Below are positions 3,225 to 19,753 of a stretch of DNA of 64,000 bases, piece by piece (position 1 is the first letter of the stretch; each line of letters opens with the position of its first letter). Origin of the DNA: Desulfobulbus sp. Lineage in GTDB: Bacteria > Desulfobacterota > Desulfobulbia > Desulfobulbales > Desulfobulbaceae. Below the pieces are notes generated by a model. The model ran no database searches. It saw nothing but the letters and a program-made list of their open reading frames with translations, and had not been told where the DNA came from. The position numbers and the translations under genes are program-made. The stretch is taken from contig NZ_JAVBXR010000033.1 of assembly GCF_030824455.1 (NCBI RefSeq), positions 1 through 64,000 of the forward strand, given 5' to 3'.

Positions 3225-5000
3225 TCACAACGCAATTTCCGCCAGCATCTGATCAATCAGCTCCAGACCGCCCTGCCAGAACGCGGCGTCGTCAAGATCA
3301 ACGCCAAACGGCTGCAGCAACTCGTAGGGCGAACCATTGCCGCCGGCGCGCAACAAGCCGAGGTAGCGCTCAACAAAGGCCTCACCCTCCGCCTGGTAAC
3401 GGGCATAGAGCGCCAACACCAGCAGCTCGCCAAACGCGTAGGAATACACATACCCCGGCGTGCCAAGGAAATGGGAGATGTAGGCCCACCAAACGGCATA
3501 GTCGTCGCGCAGGGTCACCGAATCGCCAAACATCGGCTGCTGGGTCTCCATCCACAGGGCCGACAGACGCTCCGCCGACAATTCGCCGTGTTGCCGCCGC
3601 TGGTTGTGCATCGCCGCCTCGAACCGATTCATCGCCACCTGGCGAAACACGGTGGCAAAAACGGATTCCAGCTTTTGACAGATAAAGGCCCGCCGGGCCT
3701 GCGGCGTGTTCAAAAGCTGCATCTGGGCCTTGAACACCAGCAGTTCGGCGAAAACTGAAGCTGTCTCGGCCAGCACCAAGGGCGTGTCGCTGTTGTAGAA
3801 CCCCTGCCCTGCCGCCAGCACCTGATGCACGCCGTGACCCAACTCGTGGGCCACGGTGGACACGTCGCGCATGTTGCCGGTGTAGTTCACCAGGATATAT
3901 GGGTTTGCCTCGGGAACACAGGGGTGGGCAAAGGCCCCGCCCCGCTTGCCTTGCAGAATCGGGGCGTGGATCCAGTTTTCGGTGAAAAACCGCTCCGCGA
4001 TCTCGGCCATTTGCGGAGAAAAACCGGCAAAGGCGTCAAGCACGATCCACCGGCATTGCTCCCAGGGAACCGGAGCCTCATCGCCTCCGGTCACAGGCGC
4101 GTAGCGATCATAATCAAACAGCTCGTCATAGCCAAGCAGCTGTTTTTTCAGGATGTAATAGCGATGAACCAGGTCGTTGCGGGAGGTGACCGCCGCAACC
4201 AGGGTTTCGACGGTCTGGTCGCGTAACTCGTTGGCCAGGTTGATGGCGCTGTCCCAGGACGGATAGCGGCGCAACCGGTCGTCAATCATCTTTTCCGCCG
4301 CCAGAGTGTTGAAAATGTGGGTAAGGATGTGCAAATTGTCCCGCAACCCGGCGGTCAGTTCAGCAGCCCCGTTGCGCCGGACCTCCCTCTCCGGGTGGTG
4401 AAGATCGCTCAACACCTCTTCCTCGGTCCGTTGACCGGCGCCAAAGCGCATCTGCCCCAGCAGTTTTTCAAACAACAGGTTCCAGGCGCTCCGCCCCACC
4501 GGCCGAAGATCCTGTAACAACTCTTCTTCCTTGGCGCTCAGCTGATGCGGCGCAAACTGCCGCAGGGTCTGCAGATAATGGCGATAGCGATGCAACTCCG
4601 GTTGCTGCAGACGCCGCATGGCCGTTGCCTCGTCAAGCTGGTTCCATTCGAGACGGAAAAAGACAGTCAGCCTGCCGACCGCAGCTTCAAGCTCCTCCAC
4701 CTGCTGGAGCAGGGCCGACCCGCCGGCATCTCCGGTTTGGGTGATGAAATGGAGAAAGGCAAAAGCGCCCAGTCGCGCCAGCAGAGTGTCCAGGGATTCC
4801 AGGCGCTCAACCGTCTGGTTGATTGCCCCAGCGTCCAGCTCCGCCACCCGGCCCGCAAACTCGGCGGCCAACTGCTCGGCCAGGCGCCGGCAGCGCTGCA
4901 TGTCCTGCTGAATCTCCGGCGCATCCGCAGCCGGGTAAAGCGCGCGCAGATCCCACAGAACTGCGGTTGTGCCCAGGTCTTGATTGATGTCTGTTGTCAT
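3225..5000 (-). CDS. M3-family oligoendopeptidase (PepF-like)
   Basis: This 591-residue protein is a zinc metallopeptidase of family M3, closest in organisation to oligoendopeptidase F, which degrades short peptides in the cytoplasm. The zinc site is plain: VAHELGHGVHQ (HExxH type, near residue 388) followed by ETASVFAELLV about 25 residues later, which supplies the third ligand Glu. The C-terminal half also has the conserved VYSYAFGELLVLALYARY segment near 530. There is no signal peptide. It stands alone: the neighbour downstream is convergent and the neighbour upstream (thioesterase) is on the same strand but separated by about 190 bases. ATG 5000 gives a length normal for the family. Confidence 0.9.
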   Translation of the reverse strand: MTTDINQDLGTTAVLWDLRALYPAADAPEIQQDMQRCRRLAEQLAAEFAGRVAELDAGAINQTVERLESLDTLLARLGAFAFLHFITQTGDAGGSALLQQVEELEAAVGRLTVFFRLEWNQLDEATAMRRLQQPELHRYRHYLQTLRQFAPHQLSAKEEELLQDLRPVGRSAWNLLFEKLLGQMRFGAGQRTEEEVLSDLHHPEREVRRNGAAELTAGLRDNLHILTHIFNTLAAEKMIDDRLRRYPSWDSAINLANELRDQTVETLVAAVTSRNDLVHRYYILKKQLLGYDELFDYDRYAPVTGGDEAPVPWEQCRWIVLDAFAGFSPQMAEIAERFFTENWIHAPILQGKRGGAFAHPCVPEANPYILVNYTGNMRDVSTVAHELGHGVHQVLAAGQGFYNSDTPLVLAETASVFAELLVFKAQMQLLNTPQARRAFICQKLESVFATVFRQVAMNRFEAAMHNQRRQHGELSAERLSALWMETQQPMFGDSVTLRDDYAVWWAYISHFLGTPGYVYSYAFGELLVLALYARYQAEGEAFVERYLGLLRAGGNGSPYELLQPFGVDLDDAAFWQGGLELIDQMLAEIAL

Positions 5001-12088: not shown

Positions 12089-13246
12089 ATGAAAATTCAT
12101 GAGTATCAGGCCAAGGAACTATTCCGAAAATACAATGTACCAACCCCTAAAGGCAAACTCGCCCTCACCTCGGACGAAGTAGCAAAAATTGCTGAAGAAT
12201 TCGGCTACCCGGTGGTTGTCAAGGCCCAGGTCCATGCAGGCGGTCGCGGCAAGGGCGGCGGCGTAAAGCTGGCAAAAACCGCAGCCGACGTGAAACCGGT
12301 TTCCGATTCAATCATCGGCATGACCTTGGTCACCAAGCAGACCGGGGCCCAGGGCAAGAAAGTAAGAAAAGTTCTGGTTGAGCAAGGCCTGAACATCAAA
12401 AAAGAGCTTTATCTCTCCGTTATTCCTGATCGTGAAACCTCTACCGTGACCTTCGTTTGCAGCCAGGACGGCGGTATGGACATCGAGGAAGTGGCCGCCA
12501 AGACTCCTGAGCGCATCATTTCCGTCAACGTCAGCCCGGTTACAGGATTCCAGCCCTTCCACGCCCGTAAAATCTGCTTTGGCCTTGAGATCGAAAAAGA
12601 CCTGCAGAAGCAAATGTCTGCGGTGGCCAAGAATCTCTACGAACTGTTTGTCGCCTACGATTGCTCCATGGTTGAGATCAACCCGTTGATCATCACCGCC
12701 GAGGGCCAGATCCTTGCTTTGGACGCCAAGATGGACATCGACGGCAACGCCATGTTCCGCCACCCCGACGTCAAAGAAATGCGGGACATCGAAGAGGAAG
12801 ATCCGGTCGAGGCAGAGGCCGCCCAGTATGGCCTGAACTACATCAACCTTGACGGCAACGTCGGCAACATCGTCAACGGCGCCGGTTTGGCTATGGCCAC
12901 CATGGACATCGTCAAGATGGCAGGCGCTTCGCCCGCCAACTTCCTTGACGTCGGAGGCGGAGCAAACGCCGAGGCCATTGAGAACGGTTTCCGTCTCATC
13001 ATGAAGGATCCGAAAGTCAAAGGCATCCTGATTAACGTGTTCGGCGGCATCCTGCGCTGCGACATTCTGGCCAAGGGCGTTGTTCAGGCCGCTACAAAAC
13101 TTAAACTCGCCGTTCCTGTTGTTGTCCGCATGGAAGGCACCAATGTCGATGAAGGCCGGAGAATCCTCGCCGAGTCCGGACTTGACCTGATCAATGCCAA
13201 AGACTTGGCTGATGCAGCTGAGAAGGTGGCCAAGATCGTTTCCTGA
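12089..13246 (+). CDS. sucC: succinyl-CoA synthetase (ADP-forming) beta subunit
   Basis: The 385-residue protein is the ATP-grasp beta subunit of succinyl-CoA synthetase, which couples succinyl-CoA hydrolysis to ATP formation. It begins MKIHEYQAKELFRKYNVPTP, the invariant family start, and shows AQVHAGGRGKGGGVKLA near residue 45, EINPLIIT near 197, DAKMDIDGNAMFRHP near 212, and NVFGGILRCD near 318. An upstream in-frame TTG at 12068 adds seven residues that the family lacks, so ATG 12089 was chosen. With sucD it forms the heterodimer. The gene pair precedes the transcarboxylase-type cluster on the same strand, which fits a role in propionate or succinate metabolism as much as the citric acid cycle. 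Confidence 0.96.
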   Translation: MKIHEYQAKELFRKYNVPTPKGKLALTSDEVAKIAEEFGYPVVVKAQVHAGGRGKGGGVKLAKTAADVKPVSDSIIGMTLVTKQTGAQGKKVRKVLVEQGLNIKKELYLSVIPDRETSTVTFVCSQDGGMDIEEVAAKTPERIISVNVSPVTGFQPFHARKICFGLEIEKDLQKQMSAVAKNLYELFVAYDCSMVEINPLIITAEGQILALDAKMDIDGNAMFRHPDVKEMRDIEEEDPVEAEAAQYGLNYINLDGNVGNIVNGAGLAMATMDIVKMAGASPANFLDVGGGANAEAIENGFRLIMKDPKVKGILINVFGGILRCDILAKGVVQAATKLKLAVPVVVRMEGTNVDEGRRILAESGLDLINAKDLADAAEKVAKIVS

Positions 13247-13411: not shown

Positions 13412-14287
13412 ATGAGCGTTTTCGTTAATAAAAATACTCGGTTAGTTGTACAAGGCATTACCGGCCAGGAAGGCCAGTTCCACACCCGATCCTGCATCGC
13501 CTACGGCACCAACGTTGTTGCCGGCGTTACTCCCGGCAAGGGCGGCCAGAAAATGGACGAGGTTCCGATTTTCAACAGCGTGAAGGACGCGAGAGAGAAA
13601 ACCGGCTGCAACGCCTCTATGATCCTGGTGCCGCCGCCATTTGCCGCCGACGCCATCCTGGAAGCTGCCGACGCCGGCATTGAGCTGGTTGTCTGCATCA
13701 CCGAGGGTATCCCGGTCATGGACATGATGCGGGTAAAAAATTATCTGGCCACCAAGACCACCCGTCTGATCGGCCCGAACTGCCCCGGCATCATCACCCC
13801 CGGCGAGTGCAAGATCGGCATCATGCCTGGACCGATGCACAAACCCGGCGGACCTTGGGGCGTTGTGTCCCGCTCTGGAACGCTCACCTACGAGGCTGTT
13901 CATCAGCTGACCCAGGTAGGTTTCGGCCAGACCACGGTTATCGGCATTGGCGGTGACCCGATCAACGGCACCAACTTCATTGATTGCCTCAAAGCTTTCA
14001 ACGCTGATCCGGACACCAAGGCCGTGATTATGATCGGCGAGATCGGCGGCAACGCCGAGGAAGACGCCTGCGAATGGATCAAGGCCAATATGACGAAGCC
14101 GGTTGTCGGTTTCATCGCCGGCCTGACCGCTCCTCCTGGCCGCCGCATGGGCCACGCCGGCGCCATCGTCAGCGGCGGCAAGGGTACAGCTGAAGCCAAA
14201 ATCGCCGCCATGAAGGCCAGCGGCGTGCATCACTGCCAGAACCTCGGCAAGATGGGCGAACTGTGCAAGCAAGTCTATAAAGGTTGA
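13412..14287 (+). CDS. sucD: succinyl-CoA synthetase alpha subunit
   Basis: The 291-residue alpha subunit binds CoA in its N-terminal Rossmann domain ([15 protein letters not shown] near residue 11, then [10 protein letters not shown]) and carries the phosphorylated histidine in [13 protein letters not shown]. By position the histidine is residue 248. The segment [20 protein letters not shown] near 127 is also standard. A good ribosome-binding site (GAGGAAG) precedes ATG 13412. The gap to sucC is unusually long for this pair (165 bases) and holds a hairpin, so the two genes may be expressed at different levels. Confidence 0.96.
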
Positions 14288-14298
14288 TAAGCCGCTGA

Positions 14299-14335
14299 GT
14301 GCTGCCGCCGGATGTGCTCCATCCGGCGGCAGCAC
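14299..14335 (+). terminator. strong hairpin after sucD
   Basis: GTGCTGCCGCCGGATG (14299-14314) pairs perfectly over 16 bases with CATCCGGCGGCAGCAC (14320-14335) around a five-base loop. Only a short interrupted T run follows (ggctctttc), so termination would be partial; it may separate sucCD from the carboxyltransferase cistrons. Confidence 0.55.
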
Positions 14336-14391
14336 GGCTCTTTCATAATCGAGCACGGAATTTCTACTGAATTCTGCCGCAAGGAGACAGC

Positions 14392-15942
14392 ATGAGTACA
14401 AAGGAAAAATTAGAGCAGTTGCAGCAAAAGCGGGCCAAAGCCTTGTTAGGCGGCGGTCAGGACAAAATAGACAAGATTCACGAGAAAGGCAAAAAAACGG
14501 CTCGCGAGCGCATTCATGCTCTGCTTGATCCTGGAACCTTCGAGGAATACGACGCCTTCAAACTCCATCGCTGCTACAACTTTGGCATGGAGAAAACCAA
14601 GTTTTTCGGCGACGGCATCATCACCGGCTACGGAAAGATCAATGGCCGCGGCGTGTATCTGTACGCTCAGGACTTCTCGGTACTGGCTGGATCGCTTTCC
14701 GGCACGCTTGCTGAAAAGATCTGCAAGGTGATGGACCTGGGCATGAAAAACGGCATGCCGGTCATCGGACTCAACGATTCCGGCGGCGCGCGCATCCAAG
14801 AGGGCATCGAAGCCCTTGCCGGATATACCGAAATCTTTACCCGCAACGTCTTGTCTTCCGGTGTTGTTCCCCAAATTTCCGGTGTTTTCGGACCCTGCGC
14901 CGGTGGTGCCGTGTACTCCCCTGCCTTGACCGACTTTATTATCCAGGTCAAGATCCAGTCCTACATGTTCCTGACCGGTCCCAAGGTCGTTAAAACGGTG
15001 TTGAACGAGGACGTCACCACCGAGCAGTTGGGTGGCGCGTCCATGCATACCACCAAGTCCGGCGTCACCGACTATGCTGCCGAGAACGAAGACGACGCCA
15101 TTCAGTACATCAAGGATTTGATGAGCTATCTGCCGCAGAACAACATGGAGAATCCTCCTGACGCTCCCTGCGACGATCCGATTACCCGGAAATCTGCACT
15201 GCTTAATGAGATCATCCCGGATAATCCCAACGCCGCCTATGACATGAAGAAGGTCATCACCGAGACGGCAGACAACGGCGTGTTCTTTGAAATCAAGAAG
15301 AATTTCGCTCCGAACATCGTCATCGGTTTTGCCCGTTACGGTGGCAAGGCAATCGGTATTGTCGCCAACCAGCCGTCCTACTACGCCGGCGTTCTCGACA
15401 TCGATTCCTCGATCAAGGGTGCCCGCTTCATCCGCTTCTGTGACTGCTTCAACATCCCGGTCCTGACTTTTGTTGATGTTCCAGGCTTCCTGCCCGGCAC
15501 CGCACAGGAATTCGGCGGCGTCATCCGCAACGGCGCCAAGATGCTGTATGCCTATGCTGAATCGACGGTGCCAAAGGTAACGATTATTACCCGTAAATCC
15601 TACGGCGGCGCCTACTGCGCTATGTCGTCCAAGCACCTGCGAACTGATATCAACTACTCCTGGCCGACCGGTGAAATCGCGGTTATGGGGTCCAAGGGCG
15701 CGGTCGAAGTCCTGCACGCCAGAGGCGCCAAAGCCTCCGATGATCCCAAGGCCTTTCTGGTGGAAAAAGAGAAGGAGTACAATGAACAATTCTCCAATCC
15801 CTATTGCGCTGCAGAACGCGGTTATATCGACGACGTCATCGAACCTGCTGAAACTCGTTACCGCATCATCAACGCGTTTGAGTCGATTCAAGGGAAACGC
15901 GACACCATCCCGATGAAGAAACACGGCAATATCCCGCTGTAA
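14392..15942 (+). CDS. acyl-CoA carboxyltransferase (transcarboxylase 12S / MmdA / PccB type)
   Basis: The 516-residue product is a carboxyltransferase of the propionyl-CoA carboxylase beta family, handling propionyl-CoA and methylmalonyl-CoA. Both crotonase-like halves are visible: the N-terminal one with KGKKTARERIHALLDPGTFEE, DFSVLAGSLSG and LNDSGGARIQEG (about 125-136), FGPCAGGAVYSPAL (about 165), and the C-terminal one with FCDCFNIPVLTFVDVPGFLPG and KSYGGAYCAMSSKHL. A clear AGGAG site precedes ATG 14392. It is followed by a small 64-residue gene and a carboxyltransferase/biotin-carrier fusion, with no biotin carboxylase, so a transcarboxylase (oxaloacetate to methylmalonyl-CoA) or decarboxylase role fits better than an ATP-dependent carboxylase. 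No membrane beta subunit of a sodium pump is adjacent. Confidence 0.85.
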   Translation: MSTKEKLEQLQQKRAKALLGGGQDKIDKIHEKGKKTARERIHALLDPGTFEEYDAFKLHRCYNFGMEKTKFFGDGIITGYGKINGRGVYLYAQDFSVLAGSLSGTLAEKICKVMDLGMKNGMPVIGLNDSGGARIQEGIEALAGYTEIFTRNVLSSGVVPQISGVFGPCAGGAVYSPALTDFIIQVKIQSYMFLTGPKVVKTVLNEDVTTEQLGGASMHTTKSGVTDYAAENEDDAIQYIKDLMSYLPQNNMENPPDAPCDDPITRKSALLNEIIPDNPNAAYDMKKVITETADNGVFFEIKKNFAPNIVIGFARYGGKAIGIVANQPSYYAGVLDIDSSIKGARFIRFCDCFNIPVLTFVDVPGFLPGTAQEFGGVIRNGAKMLYAYAESTVPKVTIITRKSYGGAYCAMSSKHLRTDINYSWPTGEIAVMGSKGAVEVLHARGAKASDDPKAFLVEKEKEYNEQFSNPYCAAERGYIDDVIEPAETRYRIINAFESIQGKRDTIPMKKHGNIPL

Positions 15943-16002
15943 GCATTTTCATAATGGCCGGAAACCGTTTGGTCCCGACTAATAGACGAAGAGGACGACA
16001 TA

Positions 16003-16197
16003 ATGGCAGATGTGAAAAAAAAGATGGCTGCGGCCCTTGCAGCTGTTAATGCCTATATGCAGCAGGAAGAGGAAGCCGCTTATCAGGCGCAGCTGGCTGC
16101 CGCCAAGCCCGCCGCGACCGGGCCGAGTTTATGGGCAATCGCCGGCCGTCAGGACATCATGAATTTCCGCCGGCTGATTCAGCTGAAAGCATTCTAA
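16003..16197 (+). CDS. small accessory subunit candidate of the carboxyltransferase complex
   Basis: A 64-residue protein, MADVKKKMAAALAAVNAYMQ..., with an alanine- and glutamate-rich helical N-terminal half, a Pro-Ala hinge, and a C-terminus GPSLWAIAGRQDIMNFRR followed by a short hydrophobic end. The C-terminal 'W-x-x-x-G/A-R' tail resembles the ends of small subunits in sodium-pump decarboxylases (MmdD/MmdE-like) and acyl-CoA carboxylase epsilon subunits, which dock the carboxyltransferase. There is no membrane segment, unlike OadG. GAGGAC precedes ATG 16003 at normal distance, and the gene lies in the middle of the carboxyltransferase cluster with short gaps on both sides. The role is inferred from position and the tail pattern only. 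Confidence 0.6.
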   Translation: MADVKKKMAAALAAVNAYMQQEEEAAYQAQLAAAKPAATGPSLWAIAGRQDIMNFRRLIQLKAF

Positions 16198-16251: not shown

Positions 16252-18237
16252 ATGAGCGACCAAGTAAAGATGACCGCCATGAATTACGCAAACGACCGGC
16301 CTGCAGCTGAAAATCCGGTCAAGATTATGGACTTGAGCCTTCGTGACGGCCATCAGTCTCTTTTCGCCACCCGCGGGCGGACCGAGGACATGATTCCTGT
16401 AGCTGAAATGATGGACGAAGTCGGCTTCTGGGCCATTGAGACCTGGGGCGGCGCCACCTTTGACACCATGCACCGCTTCCTCAATGAGGATCCGTGGGAG
16501 CGCCTGCGCACCCTGAAACGCTACATCAAGAAGACCCCTTTCTCCATGTTGCTGCGTGCGCAGAATCTGGTTGGCTACCGCAACTACGCCGACGATTTGG
16601 CCACCGCCTTTGTTGATCGCGCCGCCGAGAACGGCATGGACGTTTTCCGTACCTTTGACGCGCTCAACGACTACCGCAACTTCGAGACCGTTGTTAAGCA
16701 GATCAAGAAGAGCGGCAAGCATTTCCAGGGTTGTATCTGCTACTCTCTGACCGAACCGCGTCTGGGCGGCGACGTATATGATCTGAAGTACTATGTCGAC
16801 AGAGCCAAAGCCCTTGACGACATGGGTGCCGATTCCATTTGTATTAAGGATATGGCCGGCTTGATTGCTCCTTATGACGCCTACGCGATTGTCAAGGCCA
16901 TCAAGGAAGTCACCAAGACCCCGATCCATCTTCACAGCCACTTCACCTCCGGCATGGCGCCGATGAGTCACCTCAAGGCCATTGAGGCTGGTTGCGACAT
17001 CATCGACACCTGCATGACCCCGTATGCTTACCGCACCGCGCATCCGGCCGTTGAGCCGTTGGTCATGTCGCTGCTTGGCACCAATCGCGACACTGGCTTC
17101 GACATCAAGAAGCTGTTCGCGATCAACGAGGTTCTGGAAAAAGAAGTTATGCCGAAGTACAAGCACCTTATGGATGACTCCAAGTGCTCGATCATCGACA
17201 TCAACGTTCTGCTTCACCAGACCCCGGGCGGCATGCTTTCCAACTTGGTCAACCAGTTGCGCGAGATGGACGCTCTTGACAAGATCGATCAGGTCTACAA
17301 AGAGCTGCCCAAAGTGCGTAAAGACCTTGGCCAGATTCCGTTGGTCACCCCGACCAGCCAGATCGTCGGCATCCAGACCGTCAACAACGTATTGTTCGAC
17401 ACCCCGGATGAGCGCTACAAGATGATCACCGCTCAGGTAAAAGATCTGTGCTACGGCCTCTACGGCAAAACCGCTGTACCGATCAACGCCGAAGTGCAGA
17501 AGAAGGCTTTGAAGGGCTATGCCCGCGGCGAAACCCCGATCACCTGCCGTCCGGCAGAGGTTCTTGAGCCGGAAATGGAGAAGGCAAAGAAAGAGATTGG
17601 CGATTTGGCCAAAGACATCGACGATCTCGTACTCTATGCCATCTACCCGGTCACCGGTAAGAAGTTCCTCGAGTGGAAGTACGGCAAGACCCCGGCTCCG
17701 CCTGAAGTTATGCCCATCACCCTCGACGACGTTAAGAAACGCGACGAATTGGTGGCCAAAGCCAAAGCCGGCAAGCTCTTTGAACGGAAATCCGAAGCTC
17801 CGGAGAAATCCGCCAATGTCCGTACCTTCAACGTCTTTGTTGACAACGAGTACTTCAACGTTGAGGTTGATCCGACCGGCGACTTCCAGCCTATGGTGTC
17901 TGCCGCGCCTCGCGCTGCAGCGCCTGCCGCCGCCGCTGCTCCTAAGGCCGCTGCCGCCCCTGCCGCCCCTGCCGCTCCTAAAGCCGCTGCTGCAGCTGCT
18001 GCTCCTGCTCCGGTTGTCGAAGGCGGCACCCCGCTGCTGGCGCCTATGCCTGGCATGATCGTCAAAAACGTCGTCAATGTTGGCGACAGTGTTAAAGCTG
18101 GCGACGCAGTGGTCATCCTTGAAGCCATGAAGATGGAAAACTCCTTGGGCGCGCCGTGCGACGGCACCGTCAAGGCGCTTTGCTTCGGATCCGGTGATTC
18201 GGTAGCCAAAGACACCGTCCTTGCAGTAATCGGTTAA
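16252..18237 (+). CDS. pyruvate/oxaloacetate carboxyltransferase fused to biotin carrier domain
   Basis: The 661-residue protein joins a transcarboxylase 5S-type domain to a biotin carrier domain (1.3S). The TIM barrel starts IMDLSLRDGHQSLFATRGRT near residue 25 and has the metal-binding HLHSHFTSGMA near 225; these bind the divalent metal and oxaloacetate/pyruvate. A conserved helical PYC_OADA domain follows (to about 520). Then comes an Ala-Pro linker of about 40 residues (17910-18015) and a lipoyl-like carrier with VLEAMKMENSLGAP near the end; the biotinylated lysine is residue 627. A site AGGAG lies before ATG 16252; a TTG six bases earlier is less likely. The fusion replaces two separate subunits of the propionibacterial enzyme. 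Confidence 0.88.
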   Translation: MSDQVKMTAMNYANDRPAAENPVKIMDLSLRDGHQSLFATRGRTEDMIPVAEMMDEVGFWAIETWGGATFDTMHRFLNEDPWERLRTLKRYIKKTPFSMLLRAQNLVGYRNYADDLATAFVDRAAENGMDVFRTFDALNDYRNFETVVKQIKKSGKHFQGCICYSLTEPRLGGDVYDLKYYVDRAKALDDMGADSICIKDMAGLIAPYDAYAIVKAIKEVTKTPIHLHSHFTSGMAPMSHLKAIEAGCDIIDTCMTPYAYRTAHPAVEPLVMSLLGTNRDTGFDIKKLFAINEVLEKEVMPKYKHLMDDSKCSIIDINVLLHQTPGGMLSNLVNQLREMDALDKIDQVYKELPKVRKDLGQIPLVTPTSQIVGIQTVNNVLFDTPDERYKMITAQVKDLCYGLYGKTAVPINAEVQKKALKGYARGETPITCRPAEVLEPEMEKAKKEIGDLAKDIDDLVLYAIYPVTGKKFLEWKYGKTPAPPEVMPITLDDVKKRDELVAKAKAGKLFERKSEAPEKSANVRTFNVFVDNEYFNVEVDPTGDFQPMVSAAPRAAAPAAAAAPKAAAAPAAPAAPKAAAAAAAPAPVVEGGTPLLAPMPGMIVKNVVNVGDSVKAGDAVVILEAMKMENSLGAPCDGTVKALCFGSGDSVAKDTVLAVIG

Positions 18238-18262
18238 TCTTCTCGTAACCGTTAAGCACTAA

Positions 18263-18296
18263 GGGGCGCGCCACTGTTGTGGCGCGCCCCTTTTTT
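18263..18296 (+). terminator. rho-independent terminator of the carboxyltransferase cluster
   Basis: GGGGCGCGCCAC (18263-18274) pairs perfectly with GTGGCGCGCCCC (18279-18290) around TGTT and is followed by six Ts. It begins 25 bases after the stop codon of the fusion gene. Confidence 0.93.
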
Positions 18297-18343: not shown

Positions 18344-19258
18344 TCACACCAATTGCAGATATTTGGCTTGCTCCCAGAGTTTGGAGGCCAGGCGCACCGT
18401 CGCTTGATCAACCATCCGGCCTTCAACGGCGATGGCGCCTTTGCCTTCGCTTTTGGCTTGGTTGTTTGCCTCAATAACCTTGGCCGCCAGGGCAATGTCC
18501 TCTTTAGAGGGAGTAAACACCTCGTTAATAACCTCGATCTGGGAAGGATGAATAGCCCATTTGCCGTCGCAGCCAAGGGCGCACGCCATCACGGCGAAGC
18601 GACGCAATCCGTCTAAATCTTTAAAATTCCCGTAAGGCGCGTCAATGGCCAGCGCGCCGCCTGCTTTGGCGTGCATTACCATGTTGCTGATGGCAAAGTG
18701 CCAACGGTGACCAGGATACAACTCCTCTTCTTTTTCACCATGCCCGGAAATGGAAACCAGACGCGCGCCGATGGAGGCAGAATAATCGGCGATGCCGAAC
18801 ACTAGGGTTTTCACCCGATCACTGGCCTGGACAATCTCCGTGGCGCGCAGCAACCCCTCGGCGGTCTCAATCGAGGCCTCAATGCCAATTGCGCTGGATG
18901 TCCCAACCTGCATTTCAATCCCGCTTAACATCCGATCCGCAAAATAGACGTCGCCGGGGTGATTCACCTTGGGGATGACAACGGCGTCAATCACATGGCC
19001 CGCACGTTCCGCCACTTCAAGGAGATCGCGATGGGCAAAGGGCGTGTCGAGCGAGTTGATGCGGACGGTTACAGTTTTTCGACGCCAATCCAGCGAAAGG
19101 AGTGAATCAATGACCTGTTCACGAGCCTTGATCTTCTCTTCAACCGGAACGCTGTCTTCAAGGTCGAGCATGATCACATCAGCTTGGCTTTCGCAGGCCT
19201 TGTCGTGCATCTTCTTGAGATGACCGGGAACGGACAAATTGGATCGTCGTGGTTTCAT
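18344..19258 (-). CDS. HpcH/HpaI aldolase / citrate lyase beta-type (malyl-CoA lyase-like) protein
   Basis: The 304-residue product is a CitE-superfamily TIM-barrel lyase acting on acyl-CoA esters such as malyl-, methylmalyl- or citramalyl-CoA. Landmarks are KPRRSNLSVPGHL at the start, VIMLDLEDSV near residue 28, the arginine in VTVRINSLDT near 67, and GIEASIETAEGL, which supplies the metal-binding Glu, near 140. Near the C-terminus IHPSQIEVINEVF is also typical. AGGAGG stands four bases before ATG 19258, so a longer start is unlikely. Its substrate cannot be decided; a C4/C5 hydroxyacyl-CoA would fit the neighbouring propionate-type genes. It converges with the transcarboxylase cluster across the terminator. 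Confidence 0.8.
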   Translation of the reverse strand: MKPRRSNLSVPGHLKKMHDKACESQADVIMLDLEDSVPVEEKIKAREQVIDSLLSLDWRRKTVTVRINSLDTPFAHRDLLEVAERAGHVIDAVVIPKVNHPGDVYFADRMLSGIEMQVGTSSAIGIEASIETAEGLLRATEIVQASDRVKTLVFGIADYSASIGARLVSISGHGEKEEELYPGHRWHFAISNMVMHAKAGGALAIDAPYGNFKDLDGLRRFAVMACALGCDGKWAIHPSQIEVINEVFTPSKEDIALAAKVIEANNQAKSEGKGAIAVEGRMVDQATVRLASKLWEQAKYLQLV

Positions 19259-19753
19259 GCAACCTCCTGGGGCAAAGGGTGTGTGGTTGTTAGTGAGCAA
19301 TGCTTGCTTGAGCAAAACGAGAGACATGCACTCTATCGGCATATCAGCTGCTCAGCCGTCTTTGTTTACCGTATTTTTGGACAAAAGCGAAAAAAATAGA
19401 TGAGCGCAGCTGCCAGAGGCTGCAACGCCCTTTGGCACGTTACAACCGTGCCATTTTCTCGAGTTGACGGGCTTATGACAGAGAAGCAAATCGAGGAGAA
19501 ATTACAATCCGGGAGCAAAAGAAGGGAGCCAAACAACCACTGTCATGCTTTTTGGCAAACGTTGTACAATGCCCTGAGAGGGGCCCCCGAGATGCTTGCA
19601 GATTGCAAAAAGAGAAGGAAGAATGAGTCCAGAGGTTAGCCGAGCCTTATGCACCGAAGCATAACCACGGAAATTGGGCAATGCGAACAGTCGGGACGGA
19701 CAACCGTTGGCAAACAGGAAACGCAACAATGGCGGCGCCGTTGACAGGGGCGC
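19259..19753. other. 495-base intergenic region upstream of the CitE-like gene
   Basis: This gap should hold the promoter of the CitE-like gene and the 3' end of the HDOD-GGDEF transcript. The open frame on the plus strand at 19400 has no ribosome-binding site or recognisable product. The one clear element is the inverted repeat at 19433. Confidence 0.4.
19433..19453. promoter_or_regulatory. inverted repeat, possible operator
   Basis: TGGCACG and CGTGCCA form a perfect 7-base inverted repeat with a 7-base spacer. The layout is that of a dimeric regulator site, about 175 bases upstream of the CitE-like gene start. It does not fit a sigma-54 promoter, because no GC stands at the required distance from the GG. 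Confidence 0.35.

Follow-up and report, generated by a model that had tools for sequence, protein, structure and literature searches.

A 64-residue open reading frame at positions 16003..16197 (+ strand) of the window, meaning the whole 64,000-nucleotide stretch of Desulfobulbus sp. DNA analysed here, probably encodes a soluble docking (scaffold) subunit of the biotin-dependent methylmalonyl-CoA:pyruvate carboxyltransferase (transcarboxylase) of the propionate pathway. We place the probability of this reading, which draws on sequence comparisons, at about 0.78, and consider it highly probable from the same comparisons that the small protein is at least tied to the 12S/5S enzyme, either as a dedicated subunit or as an obligate partner. 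In the arrangement we propose, its N-terminal helix would pack on an association hairpin beside the 5S biotin carrier, its W-x3-GRQ tail would dock on the 12S hexamer, and a flexible Ala/Pro linker would join helix and tail. Both active sites would then be kept within reach of one swinging biotin, and the carboxyl group would move from methylmalonyl-CoA on 12S to pyruvate on 5S with no CO2 set free on the way. We infer both physical binding and a need for the protein in activity.

The gene sits in a cluster of the order sucC-sucD-12S-small-5S, all on the + strand. The pathway context is given by sucC (ADP-forming succinate-CoA ligase beta, 12089..13246; NCBIfam NF001913, 565 bits, cut-off 370) and sucD (succinate-CoA ligase alpha, 13412..14287; NF004230, 470 bits, cut-off 336). 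A 516-residue 12S-type carboxyltransferase, which acts on the CoA-ester side, follows at 14392..15942 (Pfam Carboxyl_trans, 637 bits); it is homologous to P. shermanii 12S (PDB 1on3) and scores 768 bits against TIGR01117 (mmdA), under the 999 cut-off of that model. Downstream of the small gene, 16252..18237 encodes a 661-residue fusion of 5S, the pyruvate-side carboxyltransferase, with a biotin carrier (HMGL-like, PYC_OADA and Biotin_lipoyl domains). The closest structures to this 5S are the two-subunit pyruvate carboxylase 5ks8 and P. shermanii 5S (1rqb/1rqh), also in a Foldseek search with the 5S construct described below. The carrier domain with its EAMKM motif occupies 18037..18231 (Pfam Biotin_lipoyl, 62.7 bits), and an intrinsic terminator-like hairpin of 14 pairs followed by a T run lies 3' of the gene at 18261..18292 (+). 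Thus 12S, 5S and biotin carrier occur together, with no biotin carboxylase or pump subunit adjoining them; the OAD_beta gene of the same genome sits on another contig, C67. Methylmalonyl-CoA mutase homologues are present elsewhere in the genome, and together with the cluster they make up the gene set of a propionate pathway that runs through methylmalonyl-CoA. Methylmalonyl-CoA:pyruvate transcarboxylase activity is known from Desulfobulbus propionicus, where it was measured on cells and not on these genes (PMC3072085). Two further features of the region were noted in passing: a long GC-rich inverted repeat (GTGCTGCCGCCGGATG ... CATCCGGCGGCAGCAC) seen by eye at 14299-14336 in the gap between sucD and 12S, which has no T run, and a CitE/HpcH-like lyase gene at 18347-19342 (-), convergent to the 5S gene, that scores 184 bits against the citE cut-off of 443.

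The small gene starts with ATG, preceded at a distance of 7 bases by a Shine-Dalgarno-like AGAGGA (15990..15995, +), and its translation is MADVKKKMAAALAAVNAYMQQEEEAAYQAQLAAAKPAATGPSLWAIAGRQDIMNFRRLIQLKAF. A preliminary description made from this DNA alone had pointed to an Ala/Glu-rich start and to GPSLWAIAGRQDIM, and the translation contains both. That description had ended the tail at ...RQDIM, which is wrong, as 11 further conserved residues (NFRRLIQLKAF) come after it. The Ala-rich helix spans residues 5-33 (KKKMAAALAAVNAYMQQEEEAAYQ..., 16015..16101, +) and the tail, W-x3-GRQ-x2-M-x2-R, residues 42-64 (16126..16194, +). The start is rich in Ala, Lys and Glu, and a reading of the sequence finds no hydrophobic or membrane segment, in keeping with the soluble protein first suggested.

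Clear orthologues (E < 1e-5) were found in 20 of 56 near genomes, the source genome counted, and among these loci 12S lies upstream in 20/20 and 5S was detected downstream in 19/20. Positions invariant in the near orthologues include W44, R49, Q50, M53, R56, Q60 and F64; the invariant positions are concentrated in the helix and tail, and the tail W, G, R, M, R and Q remain invariant or almost so across 35 diverse homologues. Against eight orthologues of the same length, dS is 0.53-1.15 and dN 0.04-0.13; dN lies far below dS, which indicates purifying selection on a real gene. A chance open reading frame or misread feature might be suspected from the short length and from the absence of any covering entry in Pfam, NCBIfam or PDB, and this suspicion is refuted by the orthologues, synteny, invariant residues and dN/dS, which leave it a negligible probability. 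The small gene is therefore real, conserved and unannotated. Several database matches were set aside: those of the small protein to Pfam DUF6507 and AP1AR and to PDB capsid and cytochrome entries reflect low complexity or chance, the profile match L096 is due to chance, and weak tail matches in open reading frames of about 475 residues belong to undecaprenyl-phosphate sugar transferases that carry PGLTGLWQVSGRN, a chance resemblance.

The layout of the small protein recurs in the MmdD-type subunits of sodium-pump decarboxylases (PF04277, TIGR01195). The cytoplasmic end of these membrane-anchored proteins consists of an Ala-rich helix, a flexible linker and a W-x3-G[RW] tail in the same order, and their genes likewise lie beside a 12S-type carboxyltransferase. 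A profile comparison of the small family with MmdD tails gave an hhalign probability of 97.8 over 54 columns (E 1e-12; score 59.6, where 100 column shuffles reached at most 21.9), and five tails picked by their position beside 12S gave a probability of 94.0 (score 37.6, shuffle maximum 13.4). This homology bears out the likeness to decarboxylase small-subunit tails drawn in the preliminary description. Having helix, linker and W-x3-GR motif alike, the small protein is, as judged by these comparisons, a membrane-free version of the MmdD-type cytoplasmic tail module. Unlike OadG, MmdD and GcdD, it lacks an N-terminal transmembrane helix and its cluster lacks an OadB/MmdB/OAD_beta pump subunit. 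The OAD_gamma and oadG models do not match the window protein at their cut-offs, and the best of 35 relatives reaches E 0.07 to OAD_gamma.

A soluble peptide is also part of one such pump. MmdE (epsilon) belongs to the methylmalonyl-CoA decarboxylase sodium pump, in addition to MmdD; as reported by Huder and Dimroth, the Veillonella MmdE is said to be a soluble peptide of about 55 residues that resembles the MmdD C-terminus and stabilises the complex. By this description, the window protein is like MmdE in being soluble and homologous to MmdD-type tails, and unlike it in not being part of a sodium-pump cluster. The clear homology to MmdD tails, together with the co-occurrence of a soluble gene and a pump-type subunit in some clusters (L097), could also be read as a functionless vestige of an MmdD tail left behind after loss of the pump. 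Strong purifying selection and the retention of its position across phyla make this very improbable. Separately, OadG-like membrane proteins adjoining OAD_beta in the source genome (C67, L098:1469-1951) and in L100, L103, L153, L159, L164, L169, L170 and L176 carry at their C-terminus a winged-helix-looking domain of about 60 residues (FxLxxLxExAxKxGIxxPHxxLxxLxxxGxI...) and no docking helix.

The proposed split of roles within the module derives from three lines of evidence: the proposed docking of OadG tails on OadA, the GcdD linker and the correlation of the W tail with 12S. In oxaloacetate decarboxylase, the OadG tail has been proposed to dock on the association domain of OadA, and far less OadA co-purifies once the tail is truncated (PMC7274780). 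The linker that leads to GcdA in glutaconyl-CoA decarboxylase is built in part from the C-terminus of GcdD (PMC7145394). Among OadG-type proteins, the W tail is present in 5/8 clusters with 12S or a 12S-like subunit vs 0/7 with OadA (p 0.026), and OadA-partnered OadG ends after the helix. Three of the eight proteins in 12S or 12S-like clusters have no W tail, which speaks against docking. The helix-to-hairpin half of the proposal follows the oxaloacetate decarboxylase literature and a weak direct match (probability 5.5) between the small family and OadA-partnered OadG helices, the homology on which the proposed polarity rests; the W-tail-to-12S half is proposed from the correlation with 12S. 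By analogy with OadA and OadG, the likely docking site of the helix is a beta-hairpin before the carrier, the putative association domain, at 5S residues 524-539 (17821..17868, +), which falls within the match to NF047903 (MmdC, residues 524-660). On balance, we favour somewhat the polarity that takes the helix to this hairpin and the W tail to 12S.

We also ran AF2 on two stop-read-through constructs, 12S-small and small-5S, in which in-frame stops were read as residues; these are artificial tethers standing in for the complex and not natural proteins. The hairpin was predicted as strands 607-613 and 616-622 of the construct. In the small protein, helices were predicted with modest confidence at residues 2-33 and from residue 44 onward (block mean pLDDT 64-72 for residues 1-30), and the linker with low confidence. 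The amphipathicity of the helix in the window protein is not above that of shuffled sequences; this result and the modest confidence of the predicted helices count against the docking model.

A family profile search found the small gene in 58 of 297 genomes of the phylum. The preliminary description had proposed looking for it in other Desulfobulbales clusters; it is present there, syntenic in many genomes as that description required, and the family reaches far beyond this order. In all 24 loci first examined 5S adjoins the small gene, and the gene orders are 12S-small-5S, small-5S-12S or small-5S without a nearby 12S. When 15 genomes with the small gene were checked, most of them with no 12S seen beside it, 14 had 12S somewhere in the genome, and the single one without it is 82% complete. 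We further gathered 80 named loci by 5S similarity, the closest to the window being from Desulfobulbaceae and a Desulfobulbus propionicus MAG. The small gene occurs in 34 of these loci, 33 of which also hold 12S, and is found in named Desulfobacterales, Bacteroidales, Cloacimonadota and Chloroflexi loci; the versions in Bacteroidales, Cloacimonadota and Chloroflexi MAGs are more diverged in sequence and some of the matches are weak. It is absent from the stand-alone PycB-type loci (methylotrophs, clostridia, archaea) among the named loci.

The dependence on both partners is clearest in a table of 198 phylum genomes scored for small gene, 5S and 12S, in which 5S was called carrier-fused when its open frame reached at least 570 residues. 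The small gene is present in 40/59 genomes with a 5S-carrier fusion vs 0/56 with an unfused 5S. Among fused-5S genomes, it is present in 38/43 with 12S vs 2/16 without (Fisher p 1e-16 and 8e-8 for the two comparisons, values that are overstated since related genomes are not independent). The two small-gene genomes without 12S are 82-85% complete and one of them has 12S fragments, and none of the 29 genomes with 12S and no 5S has the small gene. The small gene thus accompanies both partners, 12S and the 5S-carrier fusion, in a sharp pattern, and the idea that it tracks 5S alone was dropped on this table. Against docking stand five genomes that have fused 5S and 12S and no small gene; of these, at least G147 encodes a W-tailed MmdD-type protein in the same operon.

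These distributions bear on a different placement of the same subunit, in which the polarity is reversed (helix on 12S, W-x3-GRQ tail on 5S or the biotin carrier) or the protein binds a single partner, the 5S-carrier dimer, and brings it to a tetramer as an isolated OadG tail does with OadA. The small gene adjoins 5S even when 12S lies elsewhere in the genome, the fusions of the module seen here involve 5S and none involves 12S (see below), and tetramers of the alpha subunit are favoured by the OadG tail (PMC7274780). Its general absence where the 5S-carrier fusion lacks 12S, its absence from stand-alone PycB-type loci and the restriction of the OadG-type W tail to 12S clusters argue against such a placement, which we regard as rather unlikely.

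Some loci differ in detail around the cluster. In L028 (G050), 12S and the small gene are separated by an open reading frame of about 97 residues, at about 4149-4441, that resembles ABM/monooxygenase proteins. In some loci, namely L056, L063, L065, L097 and L258-L260, genes for a regulator of the IclR type and for a small protein resembling cupins precede the 5S cluster, and in L258-L260 the cupin occupies the expected position of the small gene. A stand-alone relative of 53 residues (MAAAISAVISYIKAEKRQ...WGVSGRQFQMQTRNQMQ) in L064/L265 (G124:C9) comes after two large open reading frames resembling methylmalonyl-CoA mutase and a MeaB-type protein, and 12S and 5S of G124 lie on other contigs.

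The classical transcarboxylase has been described with three subunits. The P. freudenreichii genome paper reports a transcarboxylase operon of four coding sequences, the fourth of which, PFREUD_18850, was taken for a C-terminal portion of 12S and not treated as a subunit (PMC2909200). The 12S crystal chain has 523 residues, and its C-terminal end coincides with that of the window 12S. We therefore inspected Propionibacterium-type operons. L300 and L301 have the order 5S-12S-small-carrier; the 5S of L301 scores above the NCBIfam cut-off for methylmalonyl-CoA carboxytransferase 5S, and the nearest PDB match of the L300 12S is P. shermanii 12S. In 25 of 25 further L300-family loci with 12S and a downstream carrier (L306-L330, e.g. 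L307, L310, L321), a small protein is encoded between the two. These proteins have 86-122 residues (72 in L301), a SAAVAAYLG-type helix and a W-x3-[GA][RL] tail, in which Y replaces W once, and belong to no Pfam family. They match the window family with a probability of 75 (score 29.7 vs a shuffle maximum of 14.7) and MmdD tails with a probability of 86 (32.3 vs 20.7). The module is the same as in the window, and PFREUD_18850, from an operon of like make-up, is the presumed counterpart of these proteins. Unlike the window protein, the Propionibacterium-type protein has an extra N-terminal coiled-coil-like stretch, and the biotin carrier of its operon is a separate 1.3S protein.

The module also occurs in other mountings. 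In two of 43 examined 5S open reading frames without an AMKM-type carrier it forms the C-terminus, namely in L241 (a Bathyarchaeota MAG, ending ...SPWVLVGRQNLAEYGA) and L299 (actinobacterial, ending ...PAWAAAGRAELVGAR). Both loci have an adjoining 12S and a separate carrier, and the two modules score above 500/500 shuffles with a joint profile. In L334 and L335 of the L300 family, a membrane-anchored protein encoded after a second 12S bears the module. These arrangements help to weigh a role limited to assembly, in which the small protein would aid assembly or solubility of 12S and 5S and not be stoichiometric in the finished enzyme. The three-subunit description of the classical enzyme, the small size of the protein and the low predicted confidence of its linker would suit such a factor; the decarboxylase proteins related to it are integral subunits, and fusion to 5S in two lineages favours a permanent place, so we hold a pure assembly role to be improbable.

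A true acyl-CoA carboxylase (ACC) epsilon subunit (AccE/PccE, PF13822) lies directly after a 12S-type subunit in L331 and L332, also of the L300 family. It resembles the window protein in position, in an E-E-V-A-A-I helix and in a W-x3-A-R motif. Unlike the window protein, it has a biotin carboxylase-carrier subunit as its partner in place of 5S, and in Streptomyces AccE/PccE is associated with the beta and alpha subunits (PMC13118682). A search of 35 small-protein relatives with Pfam ACC_epsilon gave one match (E 0.4), and kinship is unsupported by hhalign (probability 0.5 to two true epsilon proteins, with 4/60 shuffles reaching the score). A distant shared origin of ACC epsilon and the docking module is possible on these sequence likenesses.

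The preferred reading, a soluble docking subunit, agrees with the preliminary description in part: the proposal of a soluble linker not described for transcarboxylases stands in so far as the literature searched gave no description of such a subunit, and the interpretation as a whole is partly supported. The PDB matches found here show 12S and 5S only as separate structures. The evidence leans slightly towards the wider view that a fourth, structural subunit has been overlooked in transcarboxylases at large, the textbook Propionibacterium enzyme among them. A single module of helix and W-x3-GR tail may be free in these enzymes, membrane-anchored in sodium-pump decarboxylases and, in some archaea and actinobacteria, joined to 5S, and its mounting may set whether pyruvate or a membrane pump receives the carboxyl-biotin. 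For annotation of the propionate pathway, the small gene would flag 12S+5S transcarboxylases as against stand-alone pyruvate carboxylase subunit B. If confirmed, the docking subunit would be a missing part of what joins 12S, 5S and the biotin carrier in transcarboxylase, would explain the odd fourth gene of a much-studied operon, and would link soluble transcarboxylases with sodium-pump decarboxylases through one small module.
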